A stretch of 49,711 bases of DNA, taken from the IMG/VR virus record IMGVR_UViG_3300037076_000150, positions 1 through 49,711 of that record, one strand, 5' to 3'. Below, piece after piece: positions 7,586 through 21,586 of the stretch (within the stretch, counting starts at the first letter, position 1; each line of letters opens with the position of its first letter). This DNA is from a virus. Below the pieces are notes generated by a model. The model was not told the DNA's origin, searched no databases, and saw nothing but the letters and a program-made list of their open reading frames with translations. The translations under genes were made by a program, and so were the position numbers.

Positions 7586-7590
7586 CGCCT

Positions 7591-8678: not shown

Positions 8679-9203
8679 ATGCTCTCGGGCATGTTTGGGA
8701 ATCCTTTCTGGGTAGCCGTGAAGACAAAGCCACAGCGGGAGCAGTGGGCTGCAGATAATGTAGCTAATCAAGGCTACGAGTTTTATTTGCCTCTTACAGA
8801 GGCTCTTACTAAGCCTAAGCCTAAGAAACCTTGCTTAGTTCCTAAGCCCCAATACTTATTCCCACGCTACCTTTTTGTACAGACAGAGGGACCCTGGCGG
8901 TTCCTTCTAGGAACACGTGGGGTCATGAGTGTGATTATGTGCGGGCAGCGCCCTGCAGTTATGCTCCCAAGAGAAATTGACGAATTACGTGCACGCGAAA
9001 ATACTGAGGGATTGATCGTGTTGGAAGATAAGGAACAGTTTCGTTTTAATAATGGTGACAAAGTACGAGTTATCTCAGGACCATTTAGTACTTATGAGGG
9101 ACTTTATGACCGTGATCCCCAGAATAGAATAAGTGTACTGTTAGATGTATTGGGACGATATGTACCAGTGCCCCTTGATGAAGACGCCTTAGAAGCGGTA
9201 TGA
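8679..9203 (+). CDS. NusG/RfaH-like transcription elongation factor
   Basis: 174 residues. The N-terminal NGN domain shows WVAVKTKPQREQWAADNVANQGYEFYLP, then a basic linker, then PRYLFVQ and LLGTRGVMSVI, as in NusG/RfaH. The C-terminal KOW module begins FNNGDKVRVISGPFSTYEGLYD. Such proteins bind RNA polymerase and modify pausing and termination. A phage copy just upstream of the packaging and structural genes could act as an antiterminator for late operons (inference). An alternative start at 8691 (MFGNPFWVAV) would shorten it by 4 residues; no clear ribosome-binding site separates the two. Confidence 0.87.
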   Translation: MLSGMFGNPFWVAVKTKPQREQWAADNVANQGYEFYLPLTEALTKPKPKKPCLVPKPQYLFPRYLFVQTEGPWRFLLGTRGVMSVIMCGQRPAVMLPREIDELRARENTEGLIVLEDKEQFRFNNGDKVRVISGPFSTYEGLYDRDPQNRISVLLDVLGRYVPVPLDEDALEAV

Positions 9204-9210
9204 TGCTCAA

Positions 9211-11063: not shown

Positions 11064-11090
11064 TGCGTGTGTTTAATTTAGGAGTTTGTT

Positions 11091-11441
11091 TTGAGGAATT
11101 CTCATGTTGATAAGCGCAGCAATCGCTACGCTGCAAGACAGTTCGTCAGTGATATTGAGTATGAACCAGTGGAGAGCTTAGCGATGGGTATCGAAACGAA
11201 TGGCAACAGCGTGACAGAGCGTTCTCAGGGAACAGTGAAGTTCTTTAATGGTGAAAAAGGCTTTGGATTTGTACGTCGAGAGAATAATGCCCCGGACGTG
11301 TTTATTCATGCGAATGAATTGAAGCGGTCTGGCATTGAAGGTGGCGTAAAAACAGGTGACCGCCTTGAGTTTGATGTTACCGCCGTAGATGGGAAAGGTC
11401 CAAAAGCAAGTTCCATCAAGTTGATTGCAGCGGCTAAGTGA
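11091..11441 (+). CDS. Cold-shock domain protein
   Basis: The cold-shock domain occupies the last 70 residues: GTVKFFNGEKGFGFV (RNP1 K-G-F-G-F-V) and DVFIHANEL (RNP2-like), with the usual end G-x-G-x-x-A-x-x-I. It binds single-stranded nucleic acid, typically RNA. The TTG at 11091 has a well-spaced AGGAG (11080-11084); an ATG at 11184 would give an 85-residue protein closer to the family size, so the first 31 residues may or may not be translated. It lies between terS/tnpB and terL. Confidence 0.88.
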   Translation: MRNSHVDKRSNRYAARQFVSDIEYEPVESLAMGIETNGNSVTERSQGTVKFFNGEKGFGFVRRENNAPDVFIHANELKRSGIEGGVKTGDRLEFDVTAVDGKGPKASSIKLIAAAK

Positions 11442-11602
11442 ACGTCCTTCTTCATGACTGGCGTGGACCGCGCATGGTCGCCCTTAAATGGTTGTCACTA
11501 AGTTGGGACTGGGGATGTTGGCACTATCACATTGATCGCTGGGGCTGTGTCATAATGCTTTGGGTCTGGGAAAAGGACGAGCACCCCCTTGAAGATGTAT
11601 AA
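11438..11602 (+). CDS. Small Trp-rich hypothetical protein
   Basis: 54 residues from GTG 11438 (GTGA overlap with the cold-shock gene) to TAA 11600-11602, whose last base starts the large-terminase ATG (TAATG). The protein holds eight tryptophans (W-x-L-S-W-D-W-G-C-W, then L-W-V-W) plus His and Cys. The exact fit between two genes by stop/start overlaps is the main evidence that it is real. No family recognised. Confidence 0.6.
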   Translation: MNVLLHDWRGPRMVALKWLSLSWDWGCWHYHIDRWGCVIMLWVWEKDEHPLEDV

Positions 11603-13326
11603 TGAGTGTTGCTGCCCCCGCCATTTCAAAGACCATCCCCGCTGAGCGCCTTACAGCATTCAGGGATAAGCTTGCGCGCTATGCCGTAGTGGAGGCTAAG
11701 GAGCGTTGCGAGGACTCTCTTATTGAGTTTCTGCAAGCTGCATGGCCTTACATAGATGCTTCTGCCTATCAGCCTTCATGGGCAATAGAAGCCATGTGCG
11801 ACCACCTTGAGGCCGTGACATTAGGGCAGATCCCACGTCTACTAATCAACGTTCCACCCCGTTGTGCTAAGACTTCTTTGTGCTCCATTATTTACCCAGC
11901 ATGGACTTGGGCTAGATCAGAAATATCCTTTCTGAGTGGCCGTCAAGTGCGGTTTCTGTGTGCTAGTTATGGCCATGCACTTTCCTTAGACAGTTCTAAT
12001 AAGTCGCGGCGGCTATTGCAAAGCCCTTGGTACCAAAAACACTGGCCTGGTCAGATTACATTTCAGCCCGATCAAAATACCAAGATGCAATTTGACAATA
12101 CAGCCGGTGGTTCACGCATAGCAACTTCTGTTGGGGGAAGTTTGCTCGGAATTGGCGGCGATATTTTGATAGCCGACGATTTGAATAATACTGAACAGGT
12201 GGAGTCTGAAGCTGAGCGGATGACAGTGGCTAATTTCTGGAATGAGTTCCACTCCACGCGCCTTAATGATCCAAAGCGGTCGGCTATTATTGCTATTCAA
12301 CAGCGTTTGCATGAGCAGGATGTATCAGGACTAATTCTAGATAGTGATGAGGATTGGACGCATTTAATGATCCCCATGCGTCATGATGAGGCTCGTCATT
12401 GTGTTACCGTTAAGCTTCCTCAATATGACGACAACGAACCTTGGTCTGATCCACGTATTGATGAAGGTGAGTTGATGTGGCCTGAACGGTTTGGTGAGAC
12501 TCAGGTGCGGTCTCTCGAAACTGCCCTTGGCCCATATATGGCAGCCGGTCGTCTTCAACAAAGCCCTACGCCGAAAGGTGGTGGTATTATTAAGCGTGAA
12601 TGGTGGCAGCCTTGGGATCAACAGGAGGCCCAGCGTTATGGGTTAGAGTGGACCGGGGAGCGTAAGGAGTTTCCACAGTTTGAATTGGTAGTAGGATCAC
12701 TCGATACTTCTTATGGCGAGAAGCAGGAGAATGACTACAATGCCTTGACGGTGTGGGGCGTCTGGATTGATCGTAATAAAAATAGACGTGCTATGTTGAT
12801 GTTTGCCTGGGCTAAGCGGTTGCCCCTACACGGCAAGGTAATATCTGCGTTGCCTAATGAAGCCAAGGTCAATTTTGAGCAGCGCCAGCGAGAACAGTTT
12901 GGGTTAATTCAATGGGTTGCGGATACGGCAAAAAGGTATAAGATTCGACGGTTGCTGATTGAGAATAAGACGCGAGGGCGTGATGTGGCTAATGAGATCA
13001 ACCGTCTTTATGCAAGAGAAAATTGGGGTGTAGAATTATTGGATCCGGTTGGGGATAAGGTGTCACGTACTCATTCAGTTGTGCCCTTGTTTACCGATAA
13101 CGTGATTTGGGCACCGGATACAAAATGGGCAGATGCTGTAATTGCAAATAGTCAAAGTTTTCCGAAGGCTGCGCATGACGATTTGCACGATACCGTAACT
13201 CAGTTTCTCAATTGGTCCCGGGAGAACGGAATTTTGTTGAGGGGTGATGAGATGAGTGCTGCACTAGAAGACGAACAAGCGTATAAGCCGCCTCAAGATT
13301 CAGTAGCACGAATGTATGGGGTCTAG
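11602..13326 (+). CDS. terL: Large terminase subunit (packaging ATPase and nuclease)
   Basis: 574 residues. The N-terminal ATPase has a Walker A-like NVPPRCAKTS (K90), Walker B ILIADD (D192-D193) and a coupling region near A-I-I-A-I-Q-Q-R-L-H. The C-terminal RNase H-like nuclease has GSLDTSYGE, LLIENKTRG and HDDLHDTVTQFLNW, giving the expected spaced acidic residues. It would pump DNA into the prohead through the portal and cut concatemers. The arrangement VPPRxxKT is typical of terminases of this type. Normally the portal follows directly; here 8.5 kb of small genes intervene. Confidence 0.95.
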   Translation: MSVAAPAISKTIPAERLTAFRDKLARYAVVEAKERCEDSLIEFLQAAWPYIDASAYQPSWAIEAMCDHLEAVTLGQIPRLLINVPPRCAKTSLCSIIYPAWTWARSEISFLSGRQVRFLCASYGHALSLDSSNKSRRLLQSPWYQKHWPGQITFQPDQNTKMQFDNTAGGSRIATSVGGSLLGIGGDILIADDLNNTEQVESEAERMTVANFWNEFHSTRLNDPKRSAIIAIQQRLHEQDVSGLILDSDEDWTHLMIPMRHDEARHCVTVKLPQYDDNEPWSDPRIDEGELMWPERFGETQVRSLETALGPYMAAGRLQQSPTPKGGGIIKREWWQPWDQQEAQRYGLEWTGERKEFPQFELVVGSLDTSYGEKQENDYNALTVWGVWIDRNKNRRAMLMFAWAKRLPLHGKVISALPNEAKVNFEQRQREQFGLIQWVADTAKRYKIRRLLIENKTRGRDVANEINRLYARENWGVELLDPVGDKVSRTHSVVPLFTDNVIWAPDTKWADAVIANSQSFPKAAHDDLHDTVTQFLNWSRENGILLRGDEMSAALEDEQAYKPPQDSVARMYGV

Positions 13327-13329
13327 GTT

Positions 13330-13530
13330 ATGAAGAAGCTTCCCTGGCGTGTGCGGGTTAGGTTAGTTGTAGAAGGTTGGGTAGATATAGAAGCCTCTAC
13401 TGCAAGTATTGCAGAAGTAGAAGCGGCTAAGCTGCCTAATGTTATTTCTGTATTTAGGGCATCAGCTACTTTAGCAAATAAGGTGGCAGGAGCAGAAGCA
13501 CCAGCCGGTGTGCAAGAAGATTTATTTTAG
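13330..13530 (+). CDS. Small hypothetical protein
   Basis: 66 residues beginning MKKLPWRVRVRLVVEGWVDIEA, a short beta-rich segment followed by an Ala/Val-rich helix (IAEVEAAKLPNVISVF). It starts 3 nt after terL. Its stop (13528-13530) abuts the stop of the last minus-strand island gene, so it marks the left edge of the island. No family recognised. Confidence 0.55.
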   Translation: MKKLPWRVRVRLVVEGWVDIEASTASIAEVEAAKLPNVISVFRASATLANKVAGAEAPAGVQEDLF

Positions 13531-13650
13531 TTAGTGTTGAGTAGATCGATAATCCCAAGACCATGATGCGCGATATGGAAAACAACGGCGTGTAGTAGCC
13601 CCTTGGTTCCGCTGAATTTCATTCATCGCATTGATCTGAGTGAGCGTCAC
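13531..13650 (-). CDS. Microprotein, last gene of the minus-strand array
   Basis: 39 codons from GTG (complement of 13648-13650) to TAA at 13533-13531. Upstream is AAAGGCC, the same AGGCC linker that precedes most genes of this array. The stop is immediately adjacent to the stop of the plus-strand gene ending at 13530. The protein (MTLTQINAMNEIQRNQG...) has no recognised family; an internal ATG is possible. Confidence 0.45.
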   Translation of the reverse strand: MTLTQINAMNEIQRNQGATTRRCFPYRASWSWDYRSTQH

Positions 13651-13688
13651 AATCGGCCTTTGATGTTGAAAGTTATAGGTTAGCGCGT

Positions 13689-13937
13689 TCAGTTGTCGAG
13701 ATAGTGGCTCTTTGGGCGCTTACATGGCCCGAGATATTCCCAGCCGCGCCGTGCAAGTTCTTGTGGCGTAATCGGCTGTGCCTCTCCGATGCAATGCCAC
13801 ACATTTCCAAGCCACTCTGCTATTCCAGGCTTGCTTGATCGCTCAGAATGAAGCCAATGGTAGGCATCCATATTGAGCATGTCGGCGGGTGGCCAGGTTC
13901 CTGGCATCGTGTGCATTGCGGTTTTGCGCAGCGACAT
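13689..13937 (-). CDS. Small hypothetical protein of the island
   Basis: 82 residues; the ATG at 13937 follows TAGAGGCCACCAA, the array's stop/ribosome-binding linker. The C-terminal part (ITPQELARRGWEYLGPCKRP) and an aromatic middle (WLGNVWHCIGEA) look like a folded small domain. A longer reading frame extends upstream but has no such signal and would overlap the preceding gene completely. Function unknown. Confidence 0.6.
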   Translation of the reverse strand: MSLRKTAMHTMPGTWPPADMLNMDAYHWLHSERSSKPGIAEWLGNVWHCIGEAQPITPQELARRGWEYLGPCKRPKSHYLDN

Positions 13938-13947
13938 TTGGTGGCCT

Positions 13948-14103
13948 CTACTGTTCCAAAGCTTCACGCGCGATCTTGCGCATTTTCCACGTCTGAGGCT
14001 CATCAACAATCGCGGTGAGGACCGCTCGCAACCGCTGACATTCAACTATGGCGTCAGCGAGCGTCATTCGGCCATATCTGATCTGTGCTTCTGCGGCTTC
14101 CAT
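13948..14103 (-). CDS. Small helical protein of the island
   Basis: 51 residues (MEAAEAQIRYGRMTLADAIV...) from ATG 14103, with GAGGA 7-8 nt upstream. Entirely helical by appearance: A-D-A-I-V-E-C-Q-R-L-R-A-V-L. The stop TAG is part of the TAGAGGCC linker of the next gene. Function unknown. Confidence 0.65.
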   Translation of the reverse strand: MEAAEAQIRYGRMTLADAIVECQRLRAVLTAIVDEPQTWKMRKIAREALEQ

Positions 14104-14150
14104 TGCCCGTCCTCAGTTGTTCGGTTTGAATAAGCGGAATCCTGTGACAA

Positions 14151-14381
14151 CTAATTGCCGCAACAAAAGTCGCAGCACGATTGATCGGGTTTGCAGTAGG
14201 CGCGGTTCGGTTTTTCCTCAGTCGGGCCACCCGCGTCGTTGTTCTCGATCAGGTCCGCTATGGCCTCAGCCTCAGTCGCCCCGGTGCCGGTCACGCCTTC
14301 CTCCATCCCGTCATAGTACGCCAGCCAATCAAAGCGGCGGATCGGGATCGGCGGATAGACATACTCGGTGACGATTTTCAC
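14151..14381 (-). CDS. Small protein with Cys-rich tail
   Basis: 76 residues from GTG 14381, preceded by TAGGCCCGCC. Opens MKIVTEYVYPPIPIRRFDW and contains a T-E-A-E-A-I-A-D-L-I-E helix. The tail holds five cysteines within 14 residues (YCKPDQSCCDFCCGN), suggesting metal binding. I recall similar short Y-P-P-I-P-I-R-x-F-D-W proteins from bacterial genomes and prophages, without a known function. Confidence 0.65.
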   Translation of the reverse strand: MKIVTEYVYPPIPIRRFDWLAYYDGMEEGVTGTGATEAEAIADLIENNDAGGPTEEKPNRAYCKPDQSCCDFCCGN

Positions 14382-14388
14382 GGCGGGC

Positions 14389-14550
14389 CTATTTCTCCAA
14401 CGCGGCGATTGCCGCATCTGCATAAATAAAACACAGGTCGCAAGCCGCAACCGGATTGTGTGGGTAGGCGCGGCGCTGCTCAGGCGTGTTCATTGGCCAC
14501 GGCTTCCCTTGGCAGTCGGGCCGCTTTGCCCAAATCGCTCGGGCGACCAT
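14389..14550 (-). CDS. Small protein overlapping the HNH gene
   Basis: 53 residues from ATG 14550 (MVARAIWAKRPDCQG...), ending AACDLCFIYADAAIAALEK. The opening E-M-V-A-R-A-I and the closing ADAAIAAL are common in small phage and rhizobial proteins. It overlaps the 3' 71 nt of the HNH gene in another frame. A start at the internal ATG (MNTPEQRRAYPHNP), with AGGGAAG upstream, would leave only a few bases of overlap, so the N-terminus is uncertain. Confidence 0.55.
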   Translation of the reverse strand: MVARAIWAKRPDCQGKPWPMNTPEQRRAYPHNPVAACDLCFIYADAAIAALEK

Positions 14551-14806
14551 TTCTCGCGGCGTGAACTTTGATTCCGTGCTCTCGTCGCCTGTTGCACTTG
14601 TAGTGTGCGAGGACAACATTTCCCTCTCCCATATGGCCTCCGTCGCGGCGACGCTTAACGTGCTCAAAGGTTGCAAAGTCTCGCGTTGGCATTCCGTTCG
14701 GACGGTGCTTGAGCTTCATTGGCTTCTGGCACCAGTGGCAAAGACTGCGTTGCTGGTCGAAAAGGCGCTGTCGCCAAGCATTCTTTCGTGCAGCAGTCGG
14801 AGACAT
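14480..14806 (-). CDS. HNH-type endonuclease-like protein
   Basis: 108 residues from ATG 14806. The N-terminal R-Q-R-L-F-D-Q-Q-x-x-L-C-x-W-C gives the first C-x2-C; ATFEHVKRRRDGGHMGEGNVVLAHYKCNRRR supplies the catalytic His region, the GG, the N and the second Cys of a compact HNH fold. Small HNH proteins in phages act as homing or packaging nickases; here it sits inside an island of microgenes, so a homing role for the island is conceivable. The C-terminal 25 residues are overlapped by the next gene. Confidence 0.75.
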   Translation of the reverse strand: MSPTAARKNAWRQRLFDQQRSLCHWCQKPMKLKHRPNGMPTRDFATFEHVKRRRDGGHMGEGNVVLAHYKCNRRREHGIKVHAARNGRPSDLGKAARLPREAVANEHA

Positions 14807-14813
14807 TCCGTGC

Positions 14814-14990
14814 CTATTCTGACTTTGGAGGGGTGAGGAATTTTTCTAGGATGTAAGCCTCGATGGTTACGGAGGCGGCGGGAGAATATCCCCTGGCCTT
14901 GATCTCGATAGATTGGGTGCTGGACGGGTTTTGCAAAGCGGCCCGAACCACAGTTTTCAGCTTTTCATATTCTTCCTGCTCATAGCTCAT
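14814..14990 (-). CDS. Small hypothetical protein of the island
   Basis: 58 residues (MSYEQEEYEKLKTVVRAALQ...) from ATG 14990 after TAGGCCCGCAAAC. Helical N-terminus, then a segment SIEIKARGYSPAASVTIEAY that reads as a short beta-alpha unit. The TAG stop lies 7 nt before the ATG of the HNH gene. Function unknown. Confidence 0.6.
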   Translation of the reverse strand: MSYEQEEYEKLKTVVRAALQNPSSTQSIEIKARGYSPAASVTIEAYILEKFLTPPKSE

Positions 14991-15000
14991 GTTTGCGGGC

Positions 15001-15270
15001 CTAATCCTTCAACGCGGCTTCAACGTCCGCGAGCTTCTGTTCGACATGCGAAATCCAAGCATCGATGGCCTCAAGAACGGTTGGCTTCGGCTCGCAACTC
15101 CAGACCGTGCAGGCGCAAACTGGCTTGTCGGTTTTGGCCAGTCCGTCACAGACGATTGACGCAAGCCAATGGTCGCGCAGGACGCGGCGCAATGGGGTAA
15201 GGGCGGCTTTGTGCTTTTCCCATGCGGCGTCGATCATCTCGTTTTCATCGGGGGTTAAGGGGCGTTCCAT
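15001..15270 (-). CDS. Small hypothetical protein with paired cysteines
   Basis: 89 residues (MERPLTPDENEMIDAAWEKH...) from ATG 15270 after TAAAGGCCCGAA. The middle contains C-D-G-L-A-K and C-A-C-T-V-W-S-C, four cysteines that may bind a metal, flanked by helices (VLEAIDAWISHVEQKLADVE). Function unknown. Confidence 0.65.
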   Translation of the reverse strand: MERPLTPDENEMIDAAWEKHKAALTPLRRVLRDHWLASIVCDGLAKTDKPVCACTVWSCEPKPTVLEAIDAWISHVEQKLADVEAALKD

Positions 15271-15279
15271 TTCGGGCCT

Positions 15280-15477
15280 TTACTGACTGGCTAGAGGGTT
15301 GAAGATCGGCGGGTAGCTGCCGAGCGGCATTCCGGCGGCGGTAAGGCCAATGATTTCCCCATCGCGGTAGACGACTGACGGTTCCAGTTCCGACACCCAC
15401 AAGCCGAGCAATGTACGTAATGTACATTCATCGCGCCGCATCTTGGCCTCGACAGCTTGCTCGATGATGCGTTTCAC
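15280..15477 (-). CDS. Small hypothetical protein of the island
   Basis: 65 residues from GTG 15477 (MKRIIEQAVEAKMRRDE...). I prefer this start over a TTG 18 nt upstream because TAGAGGCCGCC sits directly before it. A beta-rich second half reads PSVVYRDGEIIGLTAAGMPLG. Function unknown. Confidence 0.6.
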   Translation of the reverse strand: MKRIIEQAVEAKMRRDECTLRTLLGLWVSELEPSVVYRDGEIIGLTAAGMPLGSYPPIFNPLASQ

Positions 15478-15485
15478 GGCGGCCT

Positions 15486-15650
15486 CTATTGACAAGTTTG
15501 GGGTTGGTTTTTGAGATAGCCTCTTACGTTCTCGGCGCGAGATCGGTAATCGTTAGCCTGCTCCATCAATTTTGCGGCTTGGACCTCAAGGCGCTTTGCG
15601 GCATCCTCTAGGTATTGAGCGCGAAACTGCCAATCCTCTCGTTCTGTCAT
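15486..15650 (-). CDS. Small coiled-coil-like protein
   Basis: 54 residues (MTEREDWQFRAQYLEDAAKR...), almost wholly helical with heptad-like spacing (L-E-V-Q-A-A-K-L-M-E-Q-A-N-D-Y-R). ATG 15650 follows TAGGCCGCAGCC; the stop TAG opens the next gene's TAGAGGCC linker. Function unknown. Confidence 0.6.
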   Translation of the reverse strand: MTEREDWQFRAQYLEDAAKRLEVQAAKLMEQANDYRSRAENVRGYLKNQPQTCQ

Positions 15651-15659
15651 GGCTGCGGC

Positions 15660-15836
15660 CTACTCTGACAATTCGCGCATGGCTATCATGGCGGCGCGGG
15701 CTAGGGTGCGAGCGTATCGCTGCGCACTTTCATCTTCCTCGGCCAGTCCGCAAACCGGCAAGGTGCTGCCCGTGTAGCGAGCGCGGTTGATCGCATTGGC
15801 AACCTTGTCCACGGCAGCATCGGTGATGGTCTGCAT
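15660..15836 (-). CDS. Small helical protein of the island
   Basis: 58 residues (MQTITDAAVDKVANAINRAR...) from ATG 15836 after ATAGAGGCCGCCA. Two Ala-rich helices (AQRYARTLARAAMIAMREL). Its N-I-N-R-A-R pattern recurs in the protein at 16481-16657 (HINRARRKA), so the two may be distantly related. Function unknown. Confidence 0.6.
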   Translation of the reverse strand: MQTITDAAVDKVANAINRARYTGSTLPVCGLAEEDESAQRYARTLARAAMIAMRELSE

Positions 15837-15860
15837 TGGCGGCCTCTATATCCAGATTGT

Positions 15861-16061
15861 TCAACGCATTTCGTCGTAGTCGAGAAAGTAGCTTTCGCCG
15901 CACACATCGCAGCGGTAGCGTTCGCCCTCAAAGCCGCCGCCGACTTCCTTGAGGTTTGGACACTGCGACCAGTGACCCAAGCCCTGCGGATGGTTCGGTA
16001 TCGGCGTAAACACCGGCTCGCACCCCGCACTCTTTTTCGCTGGATCGCCTTTGATCGCCAT
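15861..16061 (-). CDS. Small zinc-finger-like protein
   Basis: 66 residues from ATG 16061 (MAIKGDPAKKSAGCEP...). Cysteines at C-P-N-L and C-D-V-C-G-E-S-Y form a possible zinc site typical of ribbon proteins (Y-R-C-D-V-C-G). The spacer between its AGGA ribosome-binding site and the ATG contains a run of ten C (G on the + strand), so the spacing is about 14 nt, longer than normal. Confidence 0.65.
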   Translation of the reverse strand: MAIKGDPAKKSAGCEPVFTPIPNHPQGLGHWSQCPNLKEVGGGFEGERYRCDVCGESYFLDYDEMR

Positions 16062-16062
16062 C

Positions 16063-16072
16063 GGGGGGGGGG
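16063..16072. repeat. Ten-base G/C homopolymer tract
   Basis: Ten consecutive G on the + strand (C on the coding minus strand), directly between the AGGA of the previous linker and the start codon of the 66-residue zinc-finger-like gene. Homopolymers of this length are prone to slippage in replication, and also to sequencing error. Confidence 0.8.
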
Positions 16073-16079
16073 TAATCCT

Positions 16080-16247
16080 TCAATCGTGTCCGTGTTGTTT
16101 TTGGTACTCGGCAACTTGCCGAAGAATAGCGAACGCGCCATCCGATATGGATGTGCCGGGCCAAGACAAGAGTGCTGCCACCATCGCAAGACGGAAGCTT
16201 TCTGGCCCGTATAGGTCGGGGGCGATGCCGGGCTTACGCTTTTTCAT
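16080..16247 (-). CDS. Small hypothetical protein of the island
   Basis: 55 residues (MKKRKPGIAPDLYGPESFRL...) from ATG 16247 preceded by AAAGGAGCCCCG, the best ribosome-binding site of the minus array. Helical, with F-R-L-A-M-V-A-A-L-L and A-I-L-R-Q-V-A-E-Y-Q-K-Q. The TGA stop continues into AAGGA for the next gene. Function unknown. Confidence 0.65.
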   Translation of the reverse strand: MKKRKPGIAPDLYGPESFRLAMVAALLSWPGTSISDGAFAILRQVAEYQKQHGHD

Positions 16248-16268
16248 CGGGGCTCCTTTGACAATCTG

Positions 16269-16472
16269 TTAGGCGTAGATAACGAGAGCGACTAGACCGA
16301 CAAAAACAGCGGAGCAAAGTGCGGCGGTAAATGATCCTAGCGCCCATCCGTTCACGCGGAACGTCCAGTGACTTGTCGAGTAGTCCGCGATGCTGCTGAT
16401 GGCCGCCGTCGCCACGCCTACCATTAAACTGCCGACGACCCAAACTATCCAGAGTTTTACAGGCAACGGCAT
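16269..16472 (-). CDS. Small two-segment membrane protein
   Basis: 67 residues. Two hydrophobic segments: LWIVWVVGSLMVGVATAAI (about 7-25) and FTAALCSAVFVGLVALVIYA at the C-terminus, joined by a polar loop (DYSTSHWTFRVNGWALG). ATG 16472 follows TAAGGCCCGCC. Likely in the inner membrane; function unknown. Confidence 0.7.
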   Translation of the reverse strand: MPLPVKLWIVWVVGSLMVGVATAAISSIADYSTSHWTFRVNGWALGSFTAALCSAVFVGLVALVIYA

Positions 16473-16480
16473 GGCGGGCC

Positions 16481-16657
16481 TTATTTGACAAAATCGGTTA
16501 GGGACTTTTCCACTTCGGGCCGCGACATGATTGTGGGCTTCCCGTAGAGGATCGCTTCCGCATCAATAATTACGTCCCACATCGCGCTCATACTTCCTAC
16601 CGTAGCTGCTTTGCGTCGGGCGCGGTTGATGTGATCGACTAATTCTTGATCGGTCAT
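16481..16657 (-). CDS. Small hypothetical protein of the island
   Basis: 58 residues (MTDQELVDHINRARRKAATV...) from ATG 16657. The linker upstream (TTAACAGATTATCAAGCC) resembles the one after the membrane-protein gene (CTAACAGATTGTCAAAGG), an example of a repeated spacer. Helical; function unknown. Confidence 0.6.
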   Translation of the reverse strand: MTDQELVDHINRARRKAATVGSMSAMWDVIIDAEAILYGKPTIMSRPEVEKSLTDFVK

Positions 16658-16671
16658 GGCTTGATAATCTG

Positions 16672-16851
16672 TTAAGCGACTCGATGGGGTACAGGTTTGG
16701 GCGGCGCGGCAGGTCCCGGCGGAATGCCGGTCACGTCAGCGACGGCAAGATTGATGGCCGCATGAATTTCGTATTCAAGCTGATCGCGCAGCAAACCCTT
16801 GGCATATCGGTCGGCCACTTTCTTCGCCTCGGCTTGCGCGTGGAATGCCAT
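16672..16851 (-). CDS. First gene of the minus-strand array, helical microprotein
   Basis: 59 residues from ATG 16851 (MAFHAQAEAKKVADRYAKG...). GGAGGCC lies 9-15 nt upstream; a GTG at 16866 that overlaps this site is less likely. An amphipathic N-terminal helix is followed by a Pro-rich tail (GIPPGPAAPPKPVPH). It would be the first gene transcribed leftward from the divergent control region. Confidence 0.65.
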   Translation of the reverse strand: MAFHAQAEAKKVADRYAKGLLRDQLEYEIHAAINLAVADVTGIPPGPAAPPKPVPHRVA

Positions 16852-16887
16852 TGCTGCGGCCTCCACTAACTATCTAGACATACTGTG

Positions 16888-16902
16888 TTCCGAATTACGG
16901 AA
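16888..16902. promoter_or_regulatory. Palindromic operator candidate
   Basis: TTCCG-AATTA-CGGAA, a perfect 5-bp inverted repeat with a 5-nt AT-rich centre, in the space between the two divergent arrays. It lies just downstream of the expected leftward transcription start, a position where a dimeric repressor could block the minus array. Binding protein unknown. Confidence 0.45.
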
Positions 16903-16917
16903 TAGCTTAAGCAACGT

Positions 16918-16946
16918 AGGTTACGCTTGATTTGTTAACCTGTAAA
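16918..16946 (-). promoter_or_regulatory. Candidate leftward promoter for the minus array
   Basis: On the minus strand TTTACA (complement of 16941-16946; five of six to TTGACA) is followed after 17 nt by TAACCT (complement of 16918-16923; weak -10). Transcription would begin near 16911, about 60 nt before the first minus ATG. It overlaps the rightward promoter head to head. Confidence 0.35.
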
Positions 16947-16955
16947 GCCTATTAT
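16927..16955 (+). promoter_or_regulatory. Candidate rightward promoter for the plus array, leaderless
   Basis: TTGATT (16927-16932), a 17-nt spacer, then TATTAT (16950-16955, five of six to TATAAT). The expected start point, about 7 nt after the -10 box, is the A of the ATG at 16962. There is no Shine-Dalgarno before that ATG, so the first mRNA would be leaderless. Confidence 0.55.
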
Positions 16956-16961
16956 CGTTAA

Positions 16962-17528
16962 ATGGCTGTTGAAGACACCAGATCATACCTAAATCCATTG
17001 AAACCTAGTTGGAGTGAAGTCTCTCAACGAGAGAAGCTTACTGGAGAAATATACTGTGCAGATCAGCGCGAAGCATTATTGCGATCTTTACGAAAAGGCA
17101 GTGTTGTTGAGGTAGTAGAAACTTTCTTATTGGCTAAAACAGTTGGACGTGTTGATGTTAGAAAACGTGACTTGCTGGCAATTGTTGATCAAATTGAAAA
17201 CCGAAAAGGAGTTATTCGAGAACTTGCTACAGGACATCAATCTAATATACCCAAGCAATGGCGTCAAATGCAGGCGCGGGCGTTTGCTCTTATTTCTAGT
17301 TCTGCACGAGGAAAGAACTCCGCAGTTAATGGTAAACAATCTAAAGGCAGGCCCCATAAAACATATCATGAAGACCAACTTTCTGTTATGGAAAAAGTTT
17401 GGTTTAGTCGGCGGTACAAGACAATTGCGGAACGTATGTCTTATCTAGGCGGAATTGGGATTAAGGTAAAACGTGGGTGGATGTATAGTCGTTTTGGAAC
17501 CGTTGAAAATCCCCGAGTAAAACTTTAG
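16962..17528 (+). CDS. First plus-array gene, possible DNA-binding protein
   Basis: 188 residues, basic, with AT-rich codon use unlike its GC-rich neighbours and like the phage core. The C-terminal segment GRPHKTYHEDQLSVMEKVWFS-RRYKTIAERMSYLGG resembles the helical DNA-binding ends of some phage regulators and recombinases, but I see no catalytic motif. Being the first gene, apparently leaderless and next to the palindrome, it is the best candidate for a regulator of the island (inference). No family assigned. Confidence 0.7.
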   Translation: MAVEDTRSYLNPLKPSWSEVSQREKLTGEIYCADQREALLRSLRKGSVVEVVETFLLAKTVGRVDVRKRDLLAIVDQIENRKGVIRELATGHQSNIPKQWRQMQARAFALISSSARGKNSAVNGKQSKGRPHKTYHEDQLSVMEKVWFSRRYKTIAERMSYLGGIGIKVKRGWMYSRFGTVENPRVKL

Positions 17529-17537
17529 GAGTTTGCC

Positions 17538-17876
17538 TTGCGCGCCATAGTCTGCGGAAGCCGCAACTACAAGAATTGGGAACTGCTTTATCGCGTTCTC
17601 GATGGCCTTGGAATTACCCACGTCATCGAAGGCGGCGCGCGTGGGGCGGATAGATTGGCGAGGGAGTGGGCACAGTCTCGGCTCATTCCTATGACGACAT
17701 TTGATGCGAATTGGGACACTCACGGGAAAGTCGCAGGACAGATTCGCAATCAGCAAATGCTCGATGAAGGAAAGCCTGAATTAGTGGTGGCCTTCCCCTT
17801 GGAGAAAAGCAGCGGAACATGGGATATGGTTCGCAAGGCCAGAGCCGCTGGCGTCAAAGTTGAACTGGTTGAATAA
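17538..17876 (+). CDS. DUF2493 / SLOG-superfamily protein
   Basis: 112 residues. RAIVCGSRNYKNWELLYRVLD at the start, then VIEGGARGADRLAREWA and a C-terminal KARAAGVKVELV: the YpsA-like SLOG Rossmann fold with its G-S-R and G-G-A-R-G-A-D nucleotide-binding loops. SLOG proteins bind nucleotides or their derivatives and are frequent in phages, often of unknown role. The start is TTG 17538; the preceding stop TAG is the first three bases of its TAGGAG ribosome-binding site. Confidence 0.88.
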   Translation: MRAIVCGSRNYKNWELLYRVLDGLGITHVIEGGARGADRLAREWAQSRLIPMTTFDANWDTHGKVAGQIRNQQMLDEGKPELVVAFPLEKSSGTWDMVRKARAAGVKVELVE

Positions 17877-17889
17877 TTAGGAGCGCACC

Positions 17890-18102
17890 GTGCATACTTG
17901 GAACCCACCCGTAGAAATGACAACAACCGCGCCGCAGGGCGTGACAGAATTAAAAACCATCATGCGCGACGATAATAAAATGGTAGGCGTAACAAAACTT
18001 GGCCGTACCATTCGTTCTGCCCTGTCCGAACTACGCGAAATCCACACCGATCTACCTTTTGCGATATTGACCGTAATTTTATCTGATGAACTGAATAAAT
18101 AG
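17890..18102 (+). CDS. Small hypothetical protein of the island
   Basis: 70 residues from GTG 17890 after TTAGGAGCGCACC. A central helix (TIRSALSELREIHTDLPFAILTVILS) follows a basic strand-like segment (KMVGVTKLGR). Its end, CTGAATAAATAGGAGATT, is an 18-nt linker that recurs unchanged after the gene ending at 19462. Function unknown. Confidence 0.6.
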   Translation: MHTWNPPVEMTTTAPQGVTELKTIMRDDNKMVGVTKLGRTIRSALSELREIHTDLPFAILTVILSDELNK

Positions 18103-18112
18103 GAGATTTTAG

Positions 18113-18208
18113 ATGGCATGGAAATGTAAGGAATGCGGGAAGCATAGCGGCGGGCCGTACTGCGATGAATGTGGAGCGCCACCGTCCTGCAAATCAGGCA
18201 AGAGATAA
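18113..18208 (+). CDS. Zinc-ribbon microprotein
   Basis: 31 residues: MAWKCKECGKHSGGPYCDEC followed by GAPPSCKSGKR. Two C-x2-C pairs (C5/C8, C17/C20) spaced 8 apart form a minimal zinc ribbon. TAGGAGATTTTAG precedes the ATG. Too short for default gene finders, but the linkers on both sides support it. Confidence 0.65.
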   Translation: MAWKCKECGKHSGGPYCDECGAPPSCKSGKR

Positions 18209-18218
18209 AGGAGTTTGC

Positions 18219-18416
18219 ATGACGATAGACAGCACGATGGTTCCGGCGGGTGGCACTCGCAAGGGCGATAAGGTTTACGACGCGCGAGGCCGACTGATTG
18301 AAATCTATGAGGGCGAGTGGCGCGTCGTGGTTGATGGTGGCCGGTCAGGCTGGTGGCGTTTCAACGAACACTACGACCGCGACGGCTACTGCGACAATCC
18401 CGCCCGTGGGTACTGA
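18219..18416 (+). CDS. Small basic/aromatic protein of the island
   Basis: 65 residues from ATG 18219 after TAAAGGAGTTTGC; a longer in-frame start upstream lies inside the zinc-ribbon gene and is rejected. Mostly beta: KGDKVYDARGRLIEIYEGEWRVVVDGG, then WWRFNEHYDRDGYC. Could be a small beta-barrel. Function unknown. Confidence 0.65.
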   Translation: MTIDSTMVPAGGTRKGDKVYDARGRLIEIYEGEWRVVVDGGRSGWWRFNEHYDRDGYCDNPARGY

Positions 18417-18433
18417 ATATAGAGGAGATTTTC

Positions 18434-18778
18434 GTGTCTGCATTGGATGCGCGCCAACAGGCTTTCCGAGAAATGGATCGGGGGGTGTTCAACATCCTCA
18501 AACTGGCGCTCGCCTATGACATGACCGATGATCTGTTTATCCAAGTCGCACACGACATTAGAACCACGCTGCCGCCGAACGCCCGCAAGGAGATGCTGGC
18601 CTACACAAAAGAGATTGAGATTTTTGTGAGTGGCCGCCAATGGCAGAGGGGATGGTGGTTTTGCAAAAAGACAACTTGGAAGCACATCAATGCCGAGATC
18701 ACCTTCAATCCGTACAAGGCAAGTTTGAGTTGCTGGACTGATCCAAAAGAACCGGGCGGAATTGTCTGCTTTCAATAG
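18434..18778 (+). CDS. Hypothetical protein, 114 residues
   Basis: Starts at GTG 18434 after ATAGAGGAGATTTTC. An N-terminal helical half (FNILKLALAYDMTDDLFIQV) is followed by a Trp-rich half with W-Q-R-G-W-W-F-C-K-K-T-T-W. The spacer TGAATATAGAGGAG upstream is identical to that after 19028. Function unknown. Confidence 0.65.
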   Translation: MSALDARQQAFREMDRGVFNILKLALAYDMTDDLFIQVAHDIRTTLPPNARKEMLAYTKEIEIFVSGRQWQRGWWFCKKTTWKHINAEITFNPYKASLSCWTDPKEPGGIVCFQ

Positions 18779-18797
18779 TCACAAGAGGAGAATTGGC

Positions 18798-19028
18798 GTG
18801 CTTATCGACGATCCCAACAGTGCGAGCGGCAAGCGCGTCATCGCGGACAACCCAGGCTGCATGGCACCAGACGGCGGCGAATGCTGTCCTCAATATCTAG
18901 CCCTCTCGCAAGAAAACGAGAGGATGCGTGAAATTCTAATTTGGCTTGATCGAGTTGGCGGACTTGGACTGGAAACTCATGGGCGCATTCGCAAGGCGCT
19001 CGGTTTCAAATCCGCTGCTGACGATTGA
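18798..19028 (+). CDS. Small Cys-containing protein of the island
   Basis: 76 residues from GTG 18798, with AGAGGAG upstream. MLIDDPNSASGKRVIADNPG is followed by G-E-C-C-P and a helix (YLALSQENERMREILIWLDR). An upstream in-frame ATG would put the start inside the previous gene. Function unknown. Confidence 0.6.
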   Translation: MLIDDPNSASGKRVIADNPGCMAPDGGECCPQYLALSQENERMREILIWLDRVGGLGLETHGRIRKALGFKSAADD

Positions 19029-19046
19029 ATATAGAGGAGCAAACGA

Positions 19047-19256
19047 ATGTCTGACCTTGAGGACGGTCTAGTCGCCGCAAAAAAGGCTTTGATTGATTGT
19101 GGTTTCTGTGGTGCTGGTGAACATGGCGCAGGCGATCCTGAGATTAACTCCATCGATAGGGTTATTGGTGCGCTGCGTTCTGGTCGTCGCACAGCAACAC
19201 TTGAAATGATGGGTTTCCCAGATGCGGCATCTTTTGCAAAAGACCCAACTCAATGA
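19047..19256 (+). CDS. Small hypothetical protein of the island
   Basis: 69 residues (MSDLEDGLVAAKKALIDCGF...) from ATG 19047 after ATAGAGGAGCAAACGA. C-G-F-C-G-A-G resembles half a zinc site. The TGA stop overlaps the next ATG. Function unknown. Confidence 0.65.
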   Translation: MSDLEDGLVAAKKALIDCGFCGAGEHGAGDPEINSIDRVIGALRSGRRTATLEMMGFPDAASFAKDPTQ

Positions 19257-19462
19257 GTGTGCCAATGGCCGTCAAGGTAGTCTGGGTGCTTACGTCGATT
19301 TGGTCGGTTCACAATGCTCCTGAGCATCACTATCTACAGTTCGCTTCTCACGACGAATGTAGAGACGCTGCAATTCAAGCAATCGAAGTGGGCGGCGCAA
19401 AGTTTGCGTTCTGCACTGAGGGATACGCGACGCCACTTCAATATCTGCCGTATGAACGCTGA
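19253..19462 (+). CDS. Small, possibly exported protein
   Basis: 69 residues from ATG 19253 (ATGA overlap). The start, MAVKVVWVLTSIWSVHNA after a 4-residue lead, resembles a short signal peptide; the remainder has two cysteines (DECRDAA, FAFCTEG) that could form a disulfide. Export is inferred only. Confidence 0.6.
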   Translation: MSVPMAVKVVWVLTSIWSVHNAPEHHYLQFASHDECRDAAIQAIEVGGAKFAFCTEGYATPLQYLPYER

Positions 19463-19479
19463 ATAAATAGGAGATTGTC

Positions 19480-19704
19480 GTGTCACCTGGCGAGAAGCGG
19501 CGGCGTAAAGCAAAGCGAGAGCGCGAGCAAGCAGCCTATGCCGCCGCAGTATCAGCGTTGCCGACCGGCTCTTGCTGTTGCAACTGCGCTCATCGCGGTA
19601 CGATGCCACTTTCGCGCAAACCGATCTGCACGCTCGACAGCGATTTTGCCGGCTACACAGTGGTTGAGTTGATGCACGTCTGTCCGCGATGGACTACTAA
19701 ATAA
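19480..19704 (+). CDS. Cys-rich small protein
   Basis: 74 residues from GTG 19480 after AATAGGAGATTGTC. A strongly basic N-terminus (GEKRRRKAKREREQ) is followed by C-C-C-N-C-A-H, a second Cys (P-I-C-T-L-D) and a third (HVCPRW): a likely metal site. An Arg-rich helix beside a zinc-type cluster suggests nucleic-acid or protein binding (inference). Confidence 0.65.
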   Translation: MSPGEKRRRKAKREREQAAYAAAVSALPTGSCCCNCAHRGTMPLSRKPICTLDSDFAGYTVVELMHVCPRWTTK

Positions 19705-19716
19705 ACAGGAGCGACC

Positions 19717-19947
19717 GTGGCTGAGTATCGTTGGATTGGAGACTTCGGCGGATACGGTTGGGCTATCTGCCCCACATGCAGCGGTCGTGGTCACTGGATT
19801 GGAGTAGCCACAACAACGGCTGCTGATTGTCGTACCTGTCACGGCAACGGAAAGGTGTCATGGGGGCGCTGGCCGAACTACAATCCAACGTCAGAGCATG
19901 ATGAGGGAACGAGAATGGTCCCTCCGCCATTGGCGATAACAAAATAG
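19717..19947 (+). CDS. DnaJ-type zinc-finger protein
   Basis: 76 residues from GTG 19717 after ACAGGAGCGACC. Two copies of C-x2-C-x-G-x-G: CPTCSGRG and CRTCHGNG, separated by 18 residues, the arrangement of one zinc centre in the DnaJ cysteine-rich domain. No J domain is present. Stand-alone domains of this kind occur in phages and bind zinc and perhaps unfolded proteins. Confidence 0.75.
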   Translation: MAEYRWIGDFGGYGWAICPTCSGRGHWIGVATTTAADCRTCHGNGKVSWGRWPNYNPTSEHDEGTRMVPPPLAITK

Positions 19948-19956
19948 GAGTTTTTC

Positions 19957-20130
19957 GTGTGCGACTGCAAAATCTATTGCCAAGATACAGGCAACGGAGA
20001 TTGCCGCTATATGGTCAAGTGTTCGAAGGGAACGCCGAAGTCTGACTTTGAGCATGTGCCGATGAAGGCCGCGATCGATGATACAGTCTACTGCATCCGC
20101 TGTGGACGGGAACTAGGTCTAGCGAATTAG
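19957..20130 (+). CDS. Cys-rich microprotein
   Basis: 57 residues from GTG 19957 after AATAGGAGTTTTTC. MCDCKIYCQDTGNGDCRYMV, then KCSKGTPK and YCIRCGREL: eight cysteines, of which the last C-x2-C looks like a zinc knuckle. The stop TAG forms TAGGAG for the next gene. Function unknown. Confidence 0.6.
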   Translation: MCDCKIYCQDTGNGDCRYMVKCSKGTPKSDFEHVPMKAAIDDTVYCIRCGRELGLAN

Positions 20131-20141
20131 GAGCAACCAGC

Positions 20142-20330
20142 ATGGCCGTCGATTTTTGGACCGATGTTGACCTCTACGAGCCGACTTGCGTCTTGCGCCG
20201 GTTCGGCATTGGAGATGTTCTTGAGCAGCAATGGCGCAAAGCAAAGATAGGACGGCTCGGCCACGTCGAGGGATTTTATTATGAATGGCGTCCGGTGCCG
20301 CACGTTTACGGTGAACCAAAGTCAGAATAG
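20142..20330 (+). CDS. Small hypothetical protein of the island
   Basis: 62 residues (MAVDFWTDVDLYEPTCVLRR...) from ATG 20142 after TTAGGAGCAACCAGC. Aromatic, probably beta-rich (IGRLGHVEGFYYEWRPVPH). Function unknown. Confidence 0.6.
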   Translation: MAVDFWTDVDLYEPTCVLRRFGIGDVLEQQWRKAKIGRLGHVEGFYYEWRPVPHVYGEPKSE

Positions 20331-20341
20331 GAGATTGAAAA

Positions 20342-20509
20342 ATGATCTATGTGCACCCCACCAAACCGCGCGGATTAATCGCCCGTTATGCGATGGCACC
20401 GCTGGTGTTTTTGCAAGTCCTCTACCTGCATCCGAAGAATGGCATTGGCTATGCCGCTCGTTGGGCGCGGCAGAGCACCATCGTTCCCAATGGCGTGTTC
20501 CCAAATTAG
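20342..20509 (+). CDS. Small hydrophobic protein
   Basis: 55 residues from ATG 20342 after ATAGGAGATTGAAAA. The middle (GLIARYAMAPLVFLQVLYLH) could be a membrane or amphipathic segment, followed by a basic tail. The stop merges into TTAGGAG. Function unknown. Confidence 0.55.
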   Translation: MIYVHPTKPRGLIARYAMAPLVFLQVLYLHPKNGIGYAARWARQSTIVPNGVFPN

Positions 20510-20518
20510 GAGCCGACC

Positions 20519-20743
20519 ATGAGTATGGCAGAATATGAAATCCCGCGCCGCGTCTGCCTTGATCGAATGACGGAAGCCGAGTTGGCAATTCGCCAAGCCG
20601 TGATTGAAGTCGAGAAGGTTGGTGCAGACGTTCGACTAACTGACGCCGTGATATTGCTATCGGCTGCACAGACGCGCGTAGCTGACTACGTTGATCGTGT
20701 CCCCGGCCTACGCACTGTCCCGCAACAGCTTCAAGAGAATTAG
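20519..20743 (+). CDS. Small helical protein of the island
   Basis: 74 residues from ATG 20519 after TTAGGAGCCGACC. Helical throughout (MTEAELAIRQAVIEVEKVG, then AVILLSAAQTRVADYVDRV). Function unknown. Confidence 0.6.
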   Translation: MSMAEYEIPRRVCLDRMTEAELAIRQAVIEVEKVGADVRLTDAVILLSAAQTRVADYVDRVPGLRTVPQQLQEN

Positions 20744-20753
20744 GAGCGCAGAC

Positions 20754-20858
20754 ATGAGCCGCAGCGATACCGCGATAGTGGCCTACGCTATTTTTGTCGG
20801 CATCAATATGTTGGGGCTGTGTGGTATGCTGTATTTTCGGTTTACGATAGCCAACTAA
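20754..20858 (+). CDS. Single-pass membrane microprotein
   Basis: 34 residues from ATG 20754 after TTAGGAGCGCAGAC. A hydrophobic segment (IVAYAIFVGINMLGLCGMLY) spans almost the whole protein. Function unknown. Confidence 0.55.
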   Translation: MSRSDTAIVAYAIFVGINMLGLCGMLYFRFTIAN

Positions 20859-20868
20859 GGAATTACAG

Positions 20869-20988
20869 ATGCGCGAGGCTCACGACATACCGTTTAAGGG
20901 CTGGATACCGCTCAACGCTTTTCTGTGGGTGGCCGCTGGCGCTGCGATCTGGCTTGCGCTGCCTTACATCATCAGGCCGTTTATTTAG
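20869..20988 (+). CDS. Single-pass membrane microprotein
   Basis: 39 residues from ATG 20869 after TAAGGAATTACAG. The hydrophobic segment AFLWVAAGAAIWLALPYII follows a polar N-terminus. Neighbour of another membrane microprotein; the pair could act together (inference). Confidence 0.55.
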   Translation: MREAHDIPFKGWIPLNAFLWVAAGAAIWLALPYIIRPFI

Positions 20989-20999
20989 GGGCAAATTCC

Positions 21000-21173
21000 G
21001 TGGTCACGAAAGAAGAATGGGACGCGCTAGATAAGAAAGTTAAATCGTGGCTCGATTTTCGCTGCCAACGCGAGCTAGAGGAATCTGCAAAGCGGGTGAA
21101 AGATGCGGCGCAGAAACTTCACGATGATCTGCGGCCCGATCCAGAGATTCTACGAAAGCCGACAACTATTTAA
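21000..21173 (+). CDS. Last plus-array gene, helical microprotein
   Basis: 57 residues from GTG 21000, preceded by TTTAGGGGCAAATTCC. Highly charged helices (KRVKDAAQKLHDDL). Its TAA is followed by another AAGGAGCGCGG ribosome-binding linker with no open reading frame behind it, as though a cassette had been lost. Function unknown. Confidence 0.55.
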   Translation: MVTKEEWDALDKKVKSWLDFRCQRELEESAKRVKDAAQKLHDDLRPDPEILRKPTTI

Positions 21174-21370: not shown

Positions 21371-21586
21371 ATGGATTTCAAATCCGTAACTAGTAGCAAT
21401 ATTGATGCTGTAGCTCATGATCCGAAAACAAACACTCTCCATGTGCGTTTCAAAGGTGGCGGTGTTTATGCGTATCAGGGTGTTGATGCAGAAAAACATG
21501 CAGCCCTGATGAATGCTGCTTCAGTTGGTTCATATTTGCATGCCCACATCAAGGGCAAACATGCACACTCGAAGATGGATGGGTAA
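21371..21586 (+). CDS. KTSC-domain protein
   Basis: 71 residues. The whole protein matches the KTSC domain: S-S-N-I-D-A-V-A-H-D-P-K-T-N-T-L-H-V-R-F, G-G-x-Y-A-Y-x-G-V, then S-V-G-S-Y-L-H-A-H-I-K-G. KTSC domains are small beta-rich modules of unknown role, often in phages and lysyl-tRNA synthetase fusions. First gene after the candidate promoter, with GAAAGGG upstream. Confidence 0.8.
   Translation: MDFKSVTSSNIDAVAHDPKTNTLHVRFKGGGVYAYQGVDAEKHAALMNAASVGSYLHAHIKGKHAHSKMDG

Follow-up and report, generated by a model that had tools for sequence, protein, structure and literature searches.

A divergent island of tiny genes between terL and portal of a phage, headed by a gene of predicted serine recombinase fold, and its counterparts in other phage contigs

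The window considered here, a stretch of 49,711 nucleotides from the viral record IMGVR_UViG_3300037076_000150, represents half of a phage whose full map comprises 100,050 bases. Between the genes of the large terminase (terL, 11602–13326, plus strand; tblastn to annotated terminases; phrog_38, E 2.8e-82) and of the portal (21884–24439, plus strand; PF23899, E 9.8e-14; tblastn), it carries an island of 34 small open reading frames (ORFs) at positions 13531–21173. Two rows diverge at ~16.9 kb, 16 ORFs being directed leftward (M array, 13531–16851, minus strand) and 18 rightward; the latter row starts with a head gene, or leader (16962–17528, plus strand), and a SLOG gene, which are followed by 16 further small ORFs (P array, 17890–21173, plus strand). 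All are open from start to stop, cover 93% of the island and have a mean length of 66 codons in the minus row and 73 in the plus row (including one of 188 aa). Most intergenic gaps (28 of 32) are of 7–24 nt, the remaining four being of 38, 47, −4 and −140 nt; the last one reflects a 140-nt overlap between ORF 14389–14619 and an HNH gene, so that a later start is likely for this ORF. An original prediction made from the letters of this DNA had described the same 34 ORFs, their mean size of about 65–73 codons and their near absence of spacing, all of which were recovered. It had also credited each ORF with its own ribosome-binding site, which does not hold for several of them (e.g. 16481–16657, 15861–16061 and 19253–19462), and it had noted neither that a recombinase-fold gene lies where the rows diverge nor that the start motifs differ between the two strands.

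The base composition sets most of the island apart, in partial agreement with the proposal that it is more GC-rich than its flanks. The GC content per kilobase is 0.54–0.575 at 14–17 kb and 0.53–0.54 at 18–21 kb, against 0.48 (12–14 kb) and 0.455 (21–22 kb) in the flanks, and GC3 reaches 0.617 in the minus row and 0.559 in the plus row without its first gene, against 0.46 in 64 larger and 0.44 in 44 smaller genes elsewhere in the phage. However, the 17–18 kb segment only reaches 0.466 and some other parts of the phage are equally GC-rich. The first plus gene is unlike the others, with 188 aa and a GC3 of 0.28. The divergence region (16852–16961) includes a promoter-like sequence TTGATT-17-TATTAT (16927–16955) directed towards the plus row and a 15-nt palindrome, TTCCGAATTACGGAA. 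Promoter-like sites are not commoner than chance in the region (six versus a shuffle mean of 7.8), and 14 terminator-like sites were counted versus 9.9 in shuffles (sd 3.2). A TTGACA-TGTCAA palindrome was considered as a shared feature of head promoters, but is exact in only two of the related arrays described below (G10 and G11) and is not claimed for the window.

For most island products, no relative was found in the libraries that were searched, as might be seen if the ORFs were chance ones or if the assembly were chimeric. Such an artefact is nevertheless extremely improbable, as the island combines 93% coding density with position-specific GC and its layout is repeated in other contigs. 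Furthermore, a separately named record of 100,177 bases, IMGVR_UViG_3300037261_000082, whose final 127 bases repeat its first 127, is identical to the window in all parts compared and carries the island in the same context. In addition, ORF 18434–18778 and its relative in another phage contig (L055 on IMGVR_UViG_3300048785_000055, hereafter G11) share 80% DNA identity over the ORF only, with 17/7/46 differences at codon positions 1/2/3, dN of 0.09 and dS of 1.59 (NG86), which indicates purifying selection on at least this ORF. Random synonymous/non-synonymous substitution, which the original prediction had named as a refuting outcome, is thus not seen for this one ORF.

Both genes that border the island, i.e., a 66-aa gene on the left (13330–13530, plus strand; 42–53% in the relatives L003 and L005–L008) and a KTSC-domain gene on the right (21371–21586, plus strand; PF13619, 2.3e-21), are kept in phages whose TerL shows 58–62% identity, with other contents between or beside them. 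Among phages with related terL and portal genes, there is no gap between the two in Roseobacter phage CRP-901, gaps of ~1.5 and 2.7 kb in L003 and L008, and ~9.4 kb from terL to the next shared gene in L005 and L006, where the contents differ from those of the window. The variable content that the original prediction expected at this locus was found. Since relatives with the same borders have different contents, the site is variable, the island being one of the contents that it can hold. These comparisons support an accessory and variable character of the locus. When the TerL-related loci were searched with the island proteins at E 1e-3, only the SLOG protein matched (one further match had an E value of 0.008); megablast of the 13–22 kb segment against phage records and an Rfam search of the island returned no match. 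In L005, the ~9.4-kb segment that separates terL from the 66-aa border gene (6382–15776) includes a gene for a 308-aa protein with a zinc-ribbon-like N-terminus, which looks transposase-like by eye.

The product of the head gene (188 aa) is predicted to adopt a small serine recombinase fold followed by C-terminal helices. Its AlphaFold2 model, built from an alignment of three leader sequences, has a mean pLDDT of 68.6 (43 when folded from the single sequence). All 12 Foldseek matches to the PDB with E ≤0.001 are serine recombinases (best 5cy1, E 1.4e-5), and VIA aligns head residues 5–123 with the gamma-delta resolvase 2gm5 (Z 12.4, rmsd 2.6 over 110 residues), unrelated structures beginning near Z 5.6. 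An hhalign comparison with seven resolvases gives a score of 39.5 and a probability of 72%, whereas 100 column shuffles reach at most 21.1. The catalytic Ser/Arg motifs (YxRVS and DRLxRS) are not kept in the window leader or in its relatives from two other contigs (G10 and G12), the aligned places being occupied by NP(L/H) and by FLLA(K/P) or ACLAK. The combination of this fold with a missing catalytic motif indicates that the window protein is resolvase-derived; it probably lacks strand-exchange activity of its own, and proteins of its family may instead regulate the divergent rows.

The two rows use different start motifs. Rightward ORFs are preceded by (A)ATAGGAG or TAGAGGAG and leftward ones by TAGGCC or TAGAGGCC, the TAG of the motif often being the stop codon of the upstream ORF; in particular, the TAG stop of the head gene is fused to the first plus-row motif. 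AGGCC lies upstream of 11 of the 16 minus genes, none of the 18 plus genes and two of the 119 other genes, whereas TAGGAG precedes none of the minus genes, nine of the plus genes and 12 of the others; eight full motif sites are found on the M array strand. The same bias is observed over four phages with such rows: AGGAGC[CG] precedes 20/56 P-row genes vs 6/389 other genes, AGGAG[AT][AT]TT 14/56 vs 1/389 and AGGCC 13/24 M-row genes vs 14/389, the counts for other genes being approximate as the gene caller, a simple script of our own, misses many island ORFs. The conservation extends beyond a Shine–Dalgarno site, and sub-variants are common to several phages. When the 12 nt that precede AGGAG are compared, 11 of 45 P sites agree with a site in the array of a different phage at 10/12 positions or more, a situation encountered in none of 200 resamplings (drawn with replacement from 60 AGGAG genes outside the arrays). 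The 26 M sites of six contigs likewise show common variants, such as TTGAAGGAATAGGCC and TTGGAGAAATAGGCCC, and one 28-nt M-site stretch is identical at 27 of 28 positions between the window and G12.

A purely translational origin of these motifs can be envisaged: the host ribosome or an early phage factor would prefer extended start signals, unrelated phages of one host group would converge on them, and only those duplicates that end at a start would survive. The motif does occupy the ribosome-binding position and holds AGGAG, and the start-associated sequences (SAS) of cluster K mycobacteriophages and of cluster EF Microbacterium phages were likewise ascribed to translation initiation (PMC3203893, PMC7302621). 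This explanation is unlikely, as conservation of the leftward motif begins ahead of the stop codon (TTG AAG GAA TAG), within the last codons of unrelated proteins that consequently end in L-K-E or L-E-K, as sub-variants match between phages, and as genes located elsewhere in the array phages do not use the motif. The TAGGCC core also presumably pairs poorly with the ribosomal anti-Shine–Dalgarno sequence.

Out of three island proteins first sought in IMG/VR, 18434–18778 alone gave a relative that does not belong to the phage's own record; single-protein scans of viral contigs with ORF 13689–13937 and with the head protein recovered nothing beyond that record. The relative led to G11, where a separate row of tiny genes bearing the plus-row motif is found ~1.2 kb away from it. 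Scans of viral contigs with the start motifs then brought the number of array contigs to seven: the window (W), L131 (G10), L132 (G11), L136 (G12), L272 (G13), L273 and L267. The scan with AATAGGAGCGACCRTG gave 25 stretches, three of them with dense rows (L131, L132 and L136). G12 has the same layout as the window, i.e., a leftward AGGCC row and a rightward TAGGAG row with a relative of the leader between them (27%, E 4e-7); the G10 row is headed by another leader relative (34%, E 9e-28) and the G11 row by an intact serine recombinase (PF00239, 9.4e-38), which shares ~18% identity with the window family in a MAFFT alignment. The second scan, with TTAGGAGCGACCRTG, gave 56 stretches and 55 new loci, four of which have at least four motif hits in 4 kb. 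Three of these four (L272, L273 and L267) have a leader or an intact recombinase at the head of the row, from which a leftward-type row or a remnant of one or two genes diverges; in L273, the stop codon of the recombinase gene is part of the first motif. The head genes of G11, L267 and L273 encode plain small serine recombinases with 81–84% mutual identity, in which the YxRVS and DRLxRS catalytic residues are present, whereas the L272 leader lacks both motifs by eye. All seven arrays are therefore headed by a recombinase-fold gene (four divergent leaders, including that of the window, and three intact recombinases).

This association was quantified on the second viral scan alone, which took no part in defining either profile: a leader or recombinase accompanies three of the four dense loci vs none of the 51 others (p 1.5e-4). 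Over the three scans and their 178 motif loci, it accompanies, within the stored stretches, five of the seven dense loci vs none of 171 (p 1.5e-8), a figure partly obtained by construction since L131 and L136 had defined the leader profile. The stored stretch of L132 ends 98 nt into the recombinase gene, which is whole in the full contig and would make this a sixth dense locus with a head gene. The motif scan of genome contigs yielded 98 stretches, none with more than three plus-type motif hits in 4 kb, and the search of genome contigs for the leader family gave 35 candidate stretches without any relative. When the N-terminal part of the leader was compared with phage records, the 30 listed of the 89 matching records matched the G10 leader only in its C-terminal T5orf172 domain. 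This G10 leader (L131 2748–3635) is fused to a T5orf172/MUG113 domain (5.2e-9, 3.5e-7) and looks like a dead recombinase that has acquired a nuclease domain. A phage contig of 66% GC (L117) displays at 4664–5281 three small genes in tandem, with starts of the GAATAGGAGCGACC type, which might be a minimal array; no head gene lies in its stored stretch.

Self-comparison of the array contigs revealed four duplicated cassettes at 98–100% identity, of which three belong to plus-type rows and the fourth to a minus-type row: 202 bp at 100% in G10, 514 bp at 99.8% in G11, a split copy at 99.6–100% in G12, and 190 bp at 97.9% in G13/L272. This count leaves out matches outside the arrays and the terminal-repeat-like self matches of G10, G12 and G13 (assembly overlaps). 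All eight ends of these duplicates lie in the motif, one of them running ~5 nt past it, although 18-nt motif zones make up merely 4–5% of the three P arrays measured. Cassettes with 73–80% DNA identity are also shared between G10 and G12 and between the window and G11. The second G12 copy is split by an insert of ~1.2 kb (L136/G12 85195–86382), with perfect inverted repeats of 24 bp, CATGCTTATCCGGTTGACACCCAA, and a direct repeat of 8 bp, GGTCGGAC. One of its three small ORFs encodes a protein with 75% aa identity to the product of a cassette from the G10 array, and inspection by eye revealed no transposase.

The TerLs of W, G11, G12, G13 and G14, i.e., those identified in the seven contigs, show no pairwise BLASTP match at E 1e-3, which makes inheritance of the island together with the backbone unlikely. 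G10 encodes a tail sheath and a phrog_146 portal; L273 is a fragment of 6 kb. The array would thus either move independently of the backbone or have been kept over very long times; movement appears the more plausible option because site sub-variants and cassettes with 73–80% identity are common between phages.

Taken together, these data probably point to a platform by which phages acquire, duplicate and swap cassettes of one gene each at start-associated sites. Such a platform could operate as follows. Each cassette would consist of one tiny ORF flanked by half a start-associated site before it and half a site behind it, and the cassettes would form two rows directed outward from the recombinase-fold gene, the plus row, which starts with this gene, using TAGGAG-type sites and the minus row TAGGCC-type sites. 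Every site would serve at once as stop codon, ribosome-binding site and crossover point, so that crossover within its short core would allow cassettes to be acquired, duplicated and swapped between phages. Exchange would be ongoing, serine recombinases would carry it out or guide it, in trans for those arrays whose head protein is dead, and the cassettes would serve early interactions with the host. The question addressed is by what means phages accumulate dozens of accessory genes that are tiny and, for the most part, unrelated; if a defined site and a dedicated recombinase are indeed involved, the gain, order and transfer of cassettes become testable, and the motif together with the head gene offers a way to find accessory genes in other phages without known homology.

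Several observations weigh against this platform. The site core is short and not palindromic, and known serine recombinase sites differ from such a core. The window, G10 and G12 leaders have lost the catalytic motifs; PF00239 matches none of the three at E values up to 1, and the model of the window protein is moderate (pLDDT 68.6, hhalign probability 72%). The window island contains no long internal duplicate, and this together with the identical second assembly means that no cassette movement is seen in the window genome itself. Two older duplicates fit poorly, one in G12 (79019/79822, 85%) having both ends inside ORFs and one in G13 (42014/43589, 88%) only one of its two ends in the motif, and the G11 copy of 18434–18778 lies outside the G11 array and lacks the motif. 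L293, a loosely spaced gene region, has four motif hits and no head gene. As the motif or the leader had served to find the other arrays, the similarity of motifs among arrays is partly due to selection. Finally, the TerLs of W and G12 both belong to phrog_38 and those of G11, G13 and G14 to phrog_2, and the portals of W and G11 are distantly related (22–23%), so that the backbones are remote relatives rather than unrelated.

Exchange could also occur without any site-specific enzyme. Modular shuffling would then result from homologous or annealing recombination, or from replication template switching, at near-identical ribosome-binding sites, which would be the sole homology between neighbouring tiny genes, and the head gene would be a resolvase-derived regulator of the early rows that takes no part in exchange. 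The window encodes RecA (7591–8622; PF00154, 9.7e-36) and a gp32-like protein (6485–7585), its head protein lacks the catalytic motif, and the SAS of cluster K mycobacteriophages were proposed by their authors as possible targets of homologous recombination (PMC3203893). This explanation, whose probability falls just short of even, accounts neither for a serine recombinase fold at the head of all seven arrays, three of them intact, nor for the existence of two separate site types. The choice between site-specific and homologous or annealing exchange is close to balanced, with a slight lean towards the latter for the window itself: the occurrence of the fold in every array speaks for the former, the short asymmetric core and a leader that is dead in four of the seven arrays for the latter. 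The more detailed version of the platform can only be put forward tentatively and is rather doubtful as a whole; it would comprise a serine recombinase located between two divergent rows with two types of stop/ribosome-binding/crossover sites, some lineages having a dead regulator, one of them with a GIY-YIG-like (T5orf172) domain, and perhaps borrowing activity from other phages.

Few cassette products can be recognised. The original prediction had named zinc-ribbon, DnaJ-type, Cys-rich, membrane, HNH and SLOG proteins; among these, the SLOG protein (YAcAr/DUF2493, 112 aa, 17538–17876, plus strand; PF10686, 2.5e-15), encoded by the first cassette past the head gene, and the 108-aa HNH endonuclease (14480–14806, minus strand; PF01844, E 1.3e-5; phrog_338, 2.8e-9) are well matched. 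Relatives of the SLOG protein (~50% identity) occur in Rhodobacter phages and one Devosia plasmid. The DnaJ-type CxxCxGxG motif of a 76-aa product (19717–19947, plus strand) lies below the Pfam cut-off (PF00684, 5.6e-4; TIGR02349, 0.0014), and the other Pfam matches are marginal (10 of the 34 proteins scanned). A 31-aa zinc-ribbon-like CxxC...CxxC product (18113–18208, plus strand; Pfam E of 0.088 only) and a 67-aa product with hydrophobic stretches (16269–16472, minus strand; a membrane protein by eye) were assigned from their translations, and 18434–18778 (plus strand) is the 114-aa cassette shared with G11. Other arrays encode methyltransferase-like and DUF4326-like products, both named by eye. 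The recognisable cassettes (SLOG, HNH, zinc motifs) would fit early accessory genes. The role in host takeover or counter-defence suggested for the locus is conceivable for such genes, the accessory and variable character having been retained, but PADLOC run on the 34 island proteins found two marginal single-protein matches (E 0.0024 and 0.0039), and no defence-family match supports it.

Phages such as SPO1 and T5, the latter with its first-step region, possess early host-takeover modules, and the island might be a plain module of this kind, i.e., an operon of small early genes gathered as morons and devoid of special mobility. Divergent rows, tiny and tightly packed genes, and variable content at the site in relatives would all agree with it. 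This proposal is quite improbable, slightly more so than translational selection, because it leaves unexplained the motif-bounded duplicates and the recombinase-fold head genes and because the array position varies between genomes, that of G12, for instance, being far from terL and portal.

The platform proposed above is best viewed as functioning in the manner of integrons or of the mycobacteriophage SAS without belonging to either. Integrons rely on a tyrosine integrase, IntI, and on attC sites that fold as stem-loops and recombine in single-stranded form. The arrays resemble them by their one-gene cassettes in a row beside a site-specific recombinase gene, with repeated sites between cassettes and site-bounded duplicates, but differ from them by a serine fold, rows on both sides, a ribosome-binding site for each cassette and short sites inside the stop/start. 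No integrase was found among the 34 island products with PHROGs and NCBIfam, the head gene having a different fold. This fold likens the window head protein to Tn3 and gamma-delta resolvases and to Gin and Hin invertases, from which it differs by the missing catalytic motif.

The SAS/ESAS of cluster K mycobacteriophages and cluster EF Microbacterium phages are described as a conserved element of 13 bp that includes AGGAG and occupies the ribosome-binding position, with many copies upstream of non-structural genes, sometimes including the upstream stop codon, and as a proposed recombination target (PMC3203893, PMC7302621). The island also has a repeated conserved element at this position, but the arrays considered here differ by their tiny genes set in two divergent rows with two site types, by a head gene of the recombinase fold, by motif-bounded duplicates and by a presence in several phage lineages; the SAS consensus GGGATAGGAGCCC has no site with two mismatches or fewer in the window. 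The PeSL cassettes of T4-like phages, a repeated promoter plus stem-loop thought to mediate the shuffling of small genes (as cited in PMC4503421), differ in that most island gaps are too short (28/32 at 7–24 nt) to hold a promoter and a stem-loop. The cyanophage S-PM2 ORFanage gathers 33 ORFans in one region that is absent from close relatives; in the part of that article concerned with it, PeSL-type shuffling is judged unlikely, ORF synteny is described as seldom kept, and no recombinase-headed array is mentioned (PMC4503421). In the open-access full-text literature searched, no serine-recombinase-headed cassette array in phages turned up.

Outside the island, the window encodes a TnpB/Cas12f1-like protein (9843–11063; PF07282, 7.7e-24; PF01385, 2.8e-21), the gene of which overlaps by 4 nt a 211-aa gene (9211–9846) common to relatives. 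An IS607-type TnpA was considered for this neighbour, but the latter has no Pfam match. As TnpB had no match in any of the relatives compared, the TnpB gene of the window may be a recent arrival without TnpA beside it. The window also encodes a phage NusG-like protein (8679–9203; PF02357, 1e-11) and a DNA polymerase A with an N-terminal uracil-DNA-glycosylase domain (1661–4240; PF03167, 5.7e-17; PF00476, 1.4e-56).

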